A program made the position numbers and the translations under genes. From a virus, in the IMG/VR virus record IMGVR_UViG_3300036863_000033, positions 1 through 20,382 of that record: 20,382 nt of DNA, one strand, 5' to 3'. Within the stretch, counting starts at the first letter, position 1; each line of letters starts with the position of its first letter. Below are positions 9,229 to 14,815 of this stretch, piece by piece. The notes beneath the pieces are model-generated. The model searched no databases. It had not been told where the DNA came from and was given only the letters and a program-made list of their open reading frames with translations.

Positions 9229-10812
9229 TCAATACCCGGTCCAGTCAGACCGCGTCATCTCGGCAGCCTCCGCCTCCGCCTGATCGTCCATGCCGCCCAT
9301 ACGAAGCGTCCGGTCGCGGTCTGGGTCTCTCCTTTTGACTACGTTCCCCTGCTCGTCCACGGGATCGGGAGGGATCCAGATCTTCGGCAGGTATGCTCCC
9401 GCGTCGATGAGATCTACGGTCTTGCCGTTTGGCCAGCTGACGATCTCCTCCAAGAGGTCCGACATGGCTCTCAAGATGAAAATCCTTCCCTGGCGAAGAT
9501 ACGCTCCCCAGAAGCCCCTGATGCGCGTTCCCTTGGCGTTGGCGGAGGTATCAGTCGGGAGCTTCCCGAGACGCATCTCCGGGTAGGTCTTGAGAGCCCA
9601 GTAATAGAAGGCGATATGCCCTCCGAAGACTTCGATGGCGGCTATCGTCGGCTGCCAGGTCGTGTAGGACTGGTGGGCTTCCTCTAGCACTTGGTTGGGA
9701 TCGGAGTGCGTCGCCTTGGCTTCCAGCAAGACGATATCGAAGGGCTCGGTCGGGGTGGGGGGAGTAAGCGCAGCCACCACGTTCGCCGTTCGGGCGTCGG
9801 GGGAGTTGCGGGTTAGGCCGGCGTCTATCACCTGGAAGAGATTACAGTGGCTTAGCTTCACCTTCCTTTGGCCGTTCGGCTTCTCTAGAAAGAGCCACTG
9901 CTCCCCCTGGTGATCCTTGGCGAGTTGGTAGTAGCGAAGGAGCGTCGGATCGAGTTCGGTGACGCCCTCTCCCACGCAACGGTTCTCGTACTGCAGAGCG
10001 AAGAGCACCGGGCCTTGCTCCAAGCGGATCTGCTCTATGATCTCTTCCGGATACCGCGTAGGCCACGTCGGGTTTCCTTGCTTGTCTCGGATCTTCACCT
10101 CGTACCGGTCCACGTTGGCTACCGTCTTCTGGACGTAGTCGATCACGTCGTTCGGGCTCCAGCGCGTGCCCACGTCGTGGATCTCGCTCTTGGCGGCGTT
10201 CACCATGAGGGACCAACTTAGCTTCCGATGCTCTATCGCCTTCTCCATCACCAGTGGAGATTCTCTTGCGGCCTTGCCGACAAGATCGTCGTTCTTCTGC
10301 CGGTCGTAGTGATTGCTCGTACTCGCCCCACCCACTCCGCAAGCCTCGATCGTCGCCTCCGGCCACTTGGCCGTCCTTCGGAGCTCCAGTTGGTGAGCGT
10401 TCCACTTCACCCGCAGAGGATCCGGCACGACGTCCGAGAAGAGCCACCGATAGATCGGGCTCATCACCACGTCCTGCATGAGACCCACCCACTTCTCCGC
10501 GTTGTCCTGAATCTCGTTCGAGAGCAGCGTTCGGCTGTTCGGATCGTTCGTCGCGTACCGCAGCGTATCGGCAATCGTCCAGGTACTCGTCTTCAGAAAC
10601 CCCCGCGGCGCAAGCCCAAGCTTGAACCTCGTCGGCTTCTCTATCCACCGGCACATCCGCGCGTGCACGTCTGCGTCCAGATCGTGAAACCCACACACGA
10701 ACTTCCCAAACGCAAACGTACTCGACAGCATCACCTTCCGTATCGCCAGCCGATGCTCCTCTGAAGGCTTCGCCGCGTTCAGGGATCCGAGGATGTCGTC
10801 CACGACCCCCAT
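9229..10812 (-). CDS. terL: Terminase large subunit (packaging ATPase-nuclease)
   Basis: A 527-residue protein with the two-domain terminase plan. The ATPase has a deviant Walker A-like loop, LAPRGFLKTST (67-77), and an adenine-side strand TLLSNEIQDNAEKWVG. The probable Walker B region is HYDRQKNDDLVG (168-179); its strand is unusually hydrophilic although the two Asp are present. VGTRWSPND (214-222) is the typical coupling motif. The RNase H-like nuclease begins at VIDAGLT (328-334), with a second acidic cluster around IEVFGGH. It cuts and pumps genome concatemers into the procapsid through the portal. Start: ATG with GGAG five bases upstream. An intrinsic terminator ends right before this ribosome binding site, so expression must involve read-through. 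Confidence 0.93.
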   Translation of the reverse strand: MGVVDDILGSLNAAKPSEEHRLAIRKVMLSSTFAFGKFVCGFHDLDADVHARMCRWIEKPTRFKLGLAPRGFLKTSTWTIADTLRYATNDPNSRTLLSNEIQDNAEKWVGLMQDVVMSPIYRWLFSDVVPDPLRVKWNAHQLELRRTAKWPEATIEACGVGGASTSNHYDRQKNDDLVGKAARESPLVMEKAIEHRKLSWSLMVNAAKSEIHDVGTRWSPNDVIDYVQKTVANVDRYEVKIRDKQGNPTWPTRYPEEIIEQIRLEQGPVLFALQYENRCVGEGVTELDPTLLRYYQLAKDHQGEQWLFLEKPNGQRKVKLSHCNLFQVIDAGLTRNSPDARTANVVAALTPPTPTEPFDIVLLEAKATHSDPNQVLEEAHQSYTTWQPTIAAIEVFGGHIAFYYWALKTYPEMRLGKLPTDTSANAKGTRIRGFWGAYLRQGRIFILRAMSDLLEEIVSWPNGKTVDLIDAGAYLPKIWIPPDPVDEQGNVVKRRDPDRDRTLRMGGMDDQAEAEAAEMTRSDWTGY

Positions 10813-10820
10813 CTACTCCA

Positions 10821-10851
10821 AAATCAAAAGGGCCGGAATCTCTTCCAGCCC
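10821..10851 (-). terminator. Intrinsic terminator just upstream of terL
   Basis: On the minus strand, GGGCTGGAA and TTCCGGCCC pair over nine positions (one G-T wobble) around a GAGA tetraloop (10830-10851), followed at once by TTTTGATTT. This is a convincing Rho-independent terminator oriented toward terL. The U-tract merges with the terL ribosome binding site, leaving no room for a promoter between them. Confidence 0.75.
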
Positions 10852-11017
10852 CCTTGATAGTGGAGTGACCGCCAGTAAGCGCTAGCGGGTGCTTGCTTTC
10901 CTTACGCGAGCAAGAGGGACTTGACAAGTACCTCGAAGTATAGGAAGCGAAAATCCAGTGAAGGTGGTTCACCCAGTAAGCGACCAGCGATCGGCGGGGA
11001 AAGCCGGGAACGCGCAG

Positions 11018-11098
11018 TCACCGAAGTCCTCTCCACTCGGGATGCTTCCGCGCAAAGTCGTCTGGGACCCGAAACAGGAGAGGCTCACCTTCACCCAT
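11018..11098 (-). CDS. Possible 26-residue microprotein between terS and terL
   Basis: An ATG-started ORF on the minus strand encoding a protein-like sequence (LLFRVPDDFARKHPEWRGL) with no visible Shine-Dalgarno. It stands out from the surrounding repeat-rich DNA by a plausible amino acid mix, but at this length an open frame is easily due to chance. No family is recognised. Confidence 0.22.
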   Translation of the reverse strand: MGEGEPLLFRVPDDFARKHPEWRGLR

Positions 11099-11362
11099 AG
11101 CTAGTTAGGCTGGAACCGCCTGACCTGTCGCGTCAATCTTCCCCTAGAATCGTTAGGGGAGGGGTGAGTACCCTCCGCGCCCAGAGTCTCCGCCCACTAC
11201 GTAGGTGATAGTCATCTGACACACTGCGTCGGAGGTTAACGGTTTGTGGTGTGGATTTCTACGCACCTTTGACAGTGACGATGCACCCCCGGCCTGGGGG
11301 CTGCCCACCCACCCCTGTTCAAGGGTACCGAGGTGGTACACTCTCCACAATGAAACGCTATG

Positions 11363-11400
11363 CAATCCTTACACACACAAGCTATGGTGTGAATGGATTG
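11363..11400. repeat. Imperfect 14-bp inverted repeat
   Basis: The arms are CAATCCTTACACAC and GTGTGAATGGATTG, 12 of 14 pairs complementary, around a 10-base loop. It is the strongest dyad in the terS-terL gap that is not a terminator (no T-run on either side). It could be a protein-binding operator, a packaging-site element or an RNA hairpin; the sequence does not decide. Confidence 0.45.
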
Positions 11401-11480
11401 TAGCGAAAGGGTGAGTAGGGAATGGTTAAGGAATACGGGAGGTTAGAGAGAGAGTAGACATAACATCCGTTATGCGAAGC

Positions 11481-12008
11481 TCACTCTTGTTCGGGTGTTA
11501 CGTCTCTCGCTGTAGCGATCCTGAGGGCTTCGGTAAGCATGGAGAGTTGCTCTCCGCTGAGTGCCAGGGTGAGTCCTTGGGGAGCTTCGTTCTTCGGAGG
11601 ACCCCAGCGTTCTCGGTACCTTGGGTGGCGCTCGAGGATGAACGCCTGAGCTCTCCAGTCCTTGTACTTACCCTCTCCACCAGCGGCTAACGTCTGGGCT
11701 AGGCGAGCTTCGCATTCGTCTTGAGCTCGCGTGAGTGCGTGTGCAAAGCGAGAGTAGCGAGTATCTAACCCTTCCATCTCATCCGCGGATCCTCGTCTGA
11801 ACCAATCCCTCATGGTGTCGTAGGTGACACCGGCTTTACCTGCCGCAGCGTTGTAGGGAGCACCTGCGGCTACATCGGCGCAGATCTTGTTAGCGACCTG
11901 ATCTGTTAGAGCTCTTGGCCTACCGATGTAAGCCTGAACGCTCATTGCGCGAGCTACATCTCGAGCTATGGGCTTATCTGGGGCTGCTTCTACTGACTCG
12001 AATTCCAC
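11481..12008 (-). CDS. terS: Terminase small subunit-like DNA-binding protein
   Basis: A 175-residue protein with an N-terminal helix-turn-helix. RPRALTDQVANKICADVAAG, then PYNAAAGKAGVTYDTMRDWF (about 30-70), matches the recognition domain of many phage small terminases and related HTH proteins: a 'G....A....GV...T...W' pattern. The next part (FAHALTRAQDECEARLAQTL) is a helical oligomerisation region, followed by WRAQAFILERHPRYRERWGP, a signature also typical of small terminases. It recognises the packaging site and regulates TerL. The longest frame starts at a GTG (12008) with a poor ribosome binding site; an in-frame ATG at 11945 (MSVQAYIGRP) is an alternative, giving 154 residues. Separation from terL by 670 bases is unusual. 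Confidence 0.75.
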   Translation of the reverse strand: MEFESVEAAPDKPIARDVARAMSVQAYIGRPRALTDQVANKICADVAAGAPYNAAAGKAGVTYDTMRDWFRRGSADEMEGLDTRYSRFAHALTRAQDECEARLAQTLAAGGEGKYKDWRAQAFILERHPRYRERWGPPKNEAPQGLTLALSGEQLSMLTEALRIATARDVTPEQE

Positions 12009-12118: not shown

Positions 12119-12289
12119 GTGAGTAACGAGACTGGATCGACGTATAGGAATCTTCAAGCGAGAGTAGATCCTGAGCTCATGCGGCGCATACACGTTATTG
12201 CTGCTGAATCAGGTTCCACTCGTTCTGACACTGTGGCCTGGCTGCTCGAGAGAGCGGTTACGGCTTACGAGAAGGAGAAGGGGAAATGA
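12119..12289 (+). CDS. Ribbon-helix-helix (CopG/ParD-like) DNA-binding protein
   Basis: A 56-residue ORF starting at GTG 12119. The sequence fits the RHH fold closely: a beta-strand YRNLQARVDPEL (9-20), helix A LMRRIHVIAAESG (20-32), the turn STRSD, and helix B TVAWLLERAVTAYEKE. RHH dimers insert the strand into the DNA major groove and commonly repress their own promoter. A shorter start at ATG 12179 would delete the DNA-contacting strand, so the GTG is preferred. It has no Shine-Dalgarno and the putative promoter ends just before it, suggesting leaderless translation. The stop overlaps the next ATG (ATGA). It is the first gene of the only plus-strand cluster and may be its regulator. Confidence 0.72.
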   Translation: MSNETGSTYRNLQARVDPELMRRIHVIAAESGSTRSDTVAWLLERAVTAYEKEKGK

Positions 12290-14506: not shown

Positions 14507-14815
14507 TCAAGAGGGCTGGCCTCCGGGCTGGCCCTTTTGTTTTCCGAGCTCGCCCCCGAGCGCCGCGCTTCTCACCCACTCGTAATCGAGCCCCAGGAAC
14601 TCGCACGCATCCTTGCACGTCATGTAGCCGACGTCCCCGAAGTATAACCAGGCGATGGCTCGAGCCTTGACGTGCTTCTTGCCATGCTGAAGATCCAAGA
14701 AAGCCCCGCGCAGAAGATGCAGAATCATCTTCCTCTCCCCGATGGCCCTCTGATTCCAGGTCGAGAAGAACTGCTCGGGCCGCAGAAAAGAGAGCGAGAA
14801 AAGAGAGTCCGCCAT
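14507..14815 (-). CDS. Small phage protein with HTH-like C-terminal segment
   Basis: The longest form is 102 residues from ATG 14815, but its GGAGG touches the start codon. An in-frame ATG at 14728 has an ideal GGAGAGGAAG leader and yields 73 residues. The stretch ARAIAWLYFGDVGYMTCKDA then CEFLGLDYEWVRSAAL resembles a group of small phage proteins with the pattern 'W....d..f.f...C..LGLD...vR..l', which looks like a helix-turn-helix. A regulatory role is possible. Its 3' end encodes GQPGGQPS from DNA that on the other strand forms a strong terminator. Confidence 0.5.
   Translation of the reverse strand: MADSLFSLSFLRPEQFFSTWNQRAIGERKMILHLLRGAFLDLQHGKKHVKARAIAWLYFGDVGYMTCKDACEFLGLDYEWVRSAALGGELGKQKGQPGGQPS
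14512..14543 (+). terminator. Strong plus-strand intrinsic terminator
   Basis: The plus strand forms a 10-bp stem AGGGCTGGCC/GGGCTGGCCCT (two G-T wobbles) with a TCCG tetraloop (14512-14535), followed by TTTGTTTT. It can only stop rightward transcription and lies inside the 3' end of a minus-strand gene. The nearest candidate rightward transcript is the RHH operon, which would then run antisense across the replication gene. Confidence 0.75.

Follow-up and report, generated by a model that had tools for sequence, protein, structure and literature searches.

A hairpin directly in front of a phage terL gene may combine an intrinsic terminator with an occluded ribosome binding site

In phage lambda, a terminator is located ahead of the late genes. 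Lambda Q represents a precedent for antitermination (PMC7171158, excerpt), and the P7 protein of phage Xp10 is reported to make RNA polymerase bypass intrinsic terminators which likewise precede late genes (PMC6624301, excerpt). In the leader of Bacillus subtilis tlrB (yxjB), a terminator is described together with a hairpin in which the Shine-Dalgarno sequence is sequestered once transcription has read through, and a leader peptide in combination with an antibiotic-stalled ribosome relieves both (PMC6851288, excerpt). In phage T4, the excerpted account in PMC3014915 describes a helix that hides the ribosome binding site of the late gene e (lysozyme) in transcripts started upstream. Genes soc, 49 and I-TevI have such locks as well, and the late promoters of gene e, which lie in the region of the 5' arm, yield RNA without the 5' part.

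The window, i.e. the whole stretch of 20,382 nucleotides analyzed here (virus record IMGVR_UViG_3300036863_000033), contains a late operon that runs leftward from terS across a 668-nt interval to terL and on to the portal and capsid genes (Table 1). Profile matches agree with the initial annotation in placing the head genes downstream of a terminator-like hairpin: portal (phrog_1216) and capsid (phrog_4523, Phage_capsid_4) follow on the strand of terL. The interval between terS and terL contains open frames, and no leader peptide or trigger was recognized. The start of terL may alternatively be GTG 10803, since the N-terminus would then align without gaps to that of relative L001, as judged by eye. 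Divergent from terS, a ribbon-helix-helix gene (PF01402, 12119–12286, plus strand) encodes a candidate regulator of the promoter region shared with terS. In our own scan, the window's strongest terminator-like hairpin (-20.8) lies on the plus strand at 14511–14536, where a minus-strand open frame ends, and may terminate the rightward genes starting at 12119.

Table 1. Position of the features in and around the terS-terL interval.
Feature	Position	Strand	Basis or remark
terL, terminase large subunit	9229..10812	minus	phrog_38, E 8.5e-40; start ATG 10812 or GTG 10803
terS-terL interval, 668 nt	10813..11480	minus	without recognized gene; variable cargo region in relatives
Lower stem, 3' arm, UGGAGU, includes terL GGAG Shine-Dalgarno	10815..10820	minus	unpaired probability 0.009
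Interrupted U-tract UUUUGAUUUU	10820..10829	minus	direct reading
Upper hairpin, 16 bp, GAGA loop; core terminator stem 10851-10830	10823..10858	minus	sequence, folding, scan
Lower stem, 5' arm, ACUCCA	10861..10866	minus	pair probabilities 0.95-1.00, six fold contexts
47-nt block, shared with L003 at 84%	11034..11080	minus	L003 4013-4060
Rigid element CCCCCAG-N35-AAATCCAC-N11-TTAAC	11235..11300	minus	directly after terS; possible packaging site
terS, terminase small subunit	11481..12008	minus	phrog_4102, E 2.8e-16

Directly in front of terL, a GC-rich core stem of 9 bp (10851–10843 with 10838–10830, including one U-G pair) is capped by a GAGA loop (10842–10839). On the minus strand, this stem is followed by UUUUGAUUUU (10829–10820), GGAG (10819–10816) and the ATG at 10812, which gives the arrangement of an intrinsic terminator, a GC-rich hairpin and then a U-rich tract in transcription sense, the tract being broken by GA. 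Stem, loop and U-tract had been noted in the initial annotation; direct reading bears them out, and so does RNA folding, in which the full 16-bp upper stem (10858–10823) reaches -25.4 kcal/mol with a z-score of -4.33, a stability equalled by none of 200 shuffles. In our own scan, this is the best combination of hairpin and T-tract on the minus strand of the window (-17.8). None of 100 dinucleotide shuffles of the whole strand attained this value (best, -16.3), and the plus-strand hairpin at 14511–14536 is the sole other site below -10 kcal/mol. Moreover, the 150-nt window with the hairpin shows the lowest folding z-score (-5.97) of 141 minus-strand windows. By direct reading, the signal points toward terL only, with no T-tract on the other side. 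The d'Aubenton-Carafa score is +21.9 for the core stem and turns negative when calculated for the longer stems. The U-tract is not only interrupted but also partly paired within the longer stem, and because this extended stem takes up the T-tract, the hairpin was absent from the list of a first, simple terminator scan. The hairpin is situated about 620 nt past the terS stop in a stretch without recognized gene; for a measured E. coli terminator, full efficiency is reported to be reached with distance from the gene (PMC4824070, excerpt).

The pairing does not end with the upper hairpin. After a break of 2 nt on each side, the stem continues with ACUCCA (10866–10861) opposite UGGAGU (10820–10815), and the GGAG in this second arm is likely the Shine-Dalgarno sequence of terL. 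All six pairs are predicted with probabilities of 0.95–1.00 in six fold contexts ranging from 71 to 981 nt, and together they contribute about 10 kcal/mol (-24.9 to -35.3). Of the start-site hexamers compared (30 rows, two of which are terL), the Shine-Dalgarno hexamer at terL is the least accessible, with an unpaired probability of 0.01, and the terL start region adopts the most stable fold, -51.3 vs. values between -15.5 and -37.6 at the other genes. The Shine-Dalgarno sequence is paired in the predicted fold of transcripts started upstream, as in T4 gene e. The spacing between GGAG and ATG 10812 is just 3 nt; with GTG 10803 as the start, the nominal hexamer is 0.30 unpaired. When the 16-nt upstream flank was replaced, equal occlusion arose in 5 of 600 shuffled flanks and in 3 of 600 flanks taken from elsewhere on the strand, an event of about 1% in a single test which, being chosen after the fold was seen, is suggestive rather than proof. 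The occlusion had been overlooked in the initial annotation, whose hairpin is real but whose extents need correction: the pairing reaches from 10868 to 10812 and takes in the Shine-Dalgarno sequence, and the start codon is possibly GTG 10803. The occlusion gives reason to suspect control of translation as much as control of transcription.

Since the lower stem holds the Shine-Dalgarno sequence of terL, one hairpin could both stop transcripts and lock the translation of those that read through. The preferred reading, to which we give somewhat less than an even chance, is therefore a composite gate in which a terminator and a built-in translation lock hold TerL low in transcripts started upstream. 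Transcripts from terS or the 668-nt interval would reach the terminator and mostly stop at 10829–10820. In RNA that reads through, the lower stem would be completed and ACUCCA would pair with the Shine-Dalgarno sequence, leaving terL poorly translated. Since the stop at the U-tract precedes full synthesis of the Shine-Dalgarno sequence, the two effects would act sequentially, with little TerL from upstream-started RNA as the net outcome. Head genes farther downstream would depend on read-through or have their own promoters; if there were no other promoters, a transcription stop ahead of the entire head operon would come at a high cost. The sequence and the predicted fold both lie beyond chance, the lower stem being fuller than with shuffled or foreign flanks and stable in all contexts; from these we infer that transcription terminates here in the cell, that translation is locked and that the purpose would be low or delayed TerL.

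A stronger version, which we regard as doubtful, sees in the nested hairpin a double lock on the packaging motor: the upper part would end transcription, the lower part would block translation of terL in escaped RNA, and TerL would be held until a late trigger opens both. Candidate triggers are a new start site, an antiterminator or an RNA remodeller, and packaging would then begin only once capsids are ready.

By analogy, tlrB and T4 gene e may serve as precedents for both halves of the composite gate. The tlrB leader likewise joins a terminator to a hairpin sequestering the Shine-Dalgarno sequence, but as far as the excerpt describes it, both are relieved there by the leader peptide and the stalled ribosome, and at terL one nested hairpin would serve both roles. 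The likeness to gene e lies in the hidden ribosome site of a late phage gene; a terminator tract, in contrast, is found at terL and is absent from the excerpted T4 description.

The T4 precedent also points to a different reading, in which late mRNA is initiated within the 5' arm from a late promoter and lacks the terminator and the lock or carries them in weakened form. In agreement with such a switch, RNAs predicted to start at 10862, 10858 or 10852 leave the ribosome site 0.69–0.86 unpaired, although starts at 10842 and 10838 keep it closed (0.15 and 0.38 unpaired). Gene e, however, has late promoters in this region, whereas at terL none was found: with a consensus that may not be that of the host, the minus strand gave no sigma-70-like site, whether as a promoter for unlocked mRNA around the 5' arm or as a Q-type late promoter with binding element and sigma-dependent pause, and by eye none stands at the right distance. 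We consider this switch quite unlikely. The earlier statement that no promoter fits, while correct for the space between hairpin and start codon, was nevertheless too strict, because a start in the 5' arm would avoid both locks and free the ribosome site.

Relatives with at least 49% identity in TerL were found in IMG/VR only. The main relatives are 49–64% identical, a scan of GTDB genomes gave none at 49% or more, and named phages match at 32% identity or less only. L008, L011, L018, L019 and L022 were left out as repeats of the L009 phage, and L013, L014, L020, L023–L025, L027 and L029–L031 as repeats of other used records; L015 and L026 (26–28% identity) were excluded from the terminator scan. 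The terS-terL interval ranges in length between 668 nt (window) and 2558 nt (L021); in L021 it encodes a ribbon-helix-helix protein. In L010, inspection by eye shows an HNH-like pattern in an open frame that has no Pfam match; nuclease genes close to terminase genes are a known trend (PMC10448857, excerpt). Within the interval of the seven relative loci scanned, strong terminator-like hairpins in sense direction occur in L002, L003, L009 and L021, a weak one in L001 and none in L010 and L012. However, none of these hairpins abuts terL, the hairpin sequence of the window was found in the window itself and in none of the eight other records, and the nominal terL hexamer is 0.19–0.67 unpaired in all seven relatives. 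The absence of both hairpin and occlusion from the relatives argues against the composite gate.

The recurrence of sense-strand hairpins in the same interval (4 of 7 loci) is also what a plain boundary between transcription units would produce, in which the terminator would close off the terS transcript, leaky read-through would suffice for terL, and the ribosome site would be paired by accident. A small antisense gene comes after the hairpin in L002, L003 and L009, as would suit such a boundary, and for phage LUZ100, stepwise read-through of successive terminators is reported (PMC10134795, excerpt). Accident, on the other hand, sits poorly with a lower stem that the flank test makes uncommon by chance (about 1%), and we rate this explanation as unlikely, if not strongly so. 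A small hydrophobic protein of 69 codons is encoded antisense between terS and terL in L002 (4623–4832), L003 (4349–4558) and L009 (3192–3401), each on the minus strand; the L003 and L009 copies have no PHROG match, and that of L003 shows a weak match to DUF5657 below the cut-off.

The initial annotation had suggested antitermination of the head operon, with terL expression needing read-through or an antitermination factor. A good predicted terminator and head genes behind it are indeed present, and the order of leader, terminator and late genes fits such control and resembles lambda and Xp10. An antitermination factor would not be obligatory, given that terL could equally be expressed through some read-through or from a start within the hairpin's 5' arm. 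Unlike in lambda, no Q homologue was detected by the two informative family searches (PF06530, 0 of 7 records; PF03589, 0 of 8; positive controls detected), neither in the window, as already noted in the annotation, nor in the relatives, and NusG (PF02357) was likewise matched in 0 of 8 records. These records are incomplete or of uncertain completeness (20 kb in the case of the window), and a factor may be encoded elsewhere. Two further searches are uninformative: PF06323, another Q family, matched 0 of 9 records and 0 of 14 positive controls, and the single-subunit RNA polymerase family PF00940 matched 0 of 7 records with a positive control that matched nowhere. Furthermore, relatives do not keep a terminator at this position. 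Antitermination is therefore to be treated as a possibility and not as a conclusion, and control of the head operon by a phage-encoded antitermination factor of the lambda Q or Xp10 P7 kind appears very unlikely.

The 668-nt interval as a whole folds with a z-score of -4.16 (20 shuffles), and a 47-nt block within it is 84% identical in L003, as might be seen if the interval were a structured non-coding RNA with the hairpin as its 3' end. This is highly improbable, since inner 150-nt windows from 10876 to 11325 fold at chance level (z -1.02 to +0.28), Rfam gave no match at gathering score and none in the shared block, and the block is confined to two records and missing from L002, which is close to L003. 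A large structured RNA was accordingly rejected. The block itself connects two otherwise distant phages, and pattern scans gave no further true occurrence: L016 matches half of the block only, in a record without TerS or TerL match, and in L017 the pattern lies within an open frame, by eye. A shared zinc-ribbon gene was dismissed as well; an L003 open frame shows two C-x2-C motifs by eye, but single-base gaps occur in the alignment with the window. Similarly, an attenuator with a distant antiterminator was discarded, as the 8-nt complement of the 5' arm at 11115 is equalled in length in 109 of 1000 shuffles.

Directly after terS, a second element is more widely shared. In all seven records compared (the window, L001, L002, L003, L009, L010 and L021), a CCCCCAG or CCCCCAC box is followed about 61–62 nt on by TTAAC or TTGA, and in four of them AAATCC (AAATCCRC) stands between the boxes at a near-fixed place, spacings being counted by eye. 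The element is single-copy, and a leave-one-out profile, whose columns and one-base gap were chosen with all rows in view, ranks the site first in 7 of 7 records. L012 was kept outside this profile because its TerS is unmatched; its CCCCCAG, at 2109, is more widely spaced, as judged by eye. A pattern match in L028, a record with other genes and without a terminase match at 1e-3, is due to chance. The single copy, the near-fixed spacing and the location beside terS suggest a candidate packaging (cos/pac) site, in which case the hairpin would sit between the packaging site and terL.

In the open-access literature, no report was found of an element like the hairpin ahead of a terminase gene. A terminator between terS and terL appears to recur in this group, and the abutting, locking form has so far one occurrence among the sequences compared. 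If real, the composite gate would be a compact means of keeping a terminase low or late. Of the two, the element following terS, which may denote the packaging site in this group of phages, is perhaps the more promising lead.
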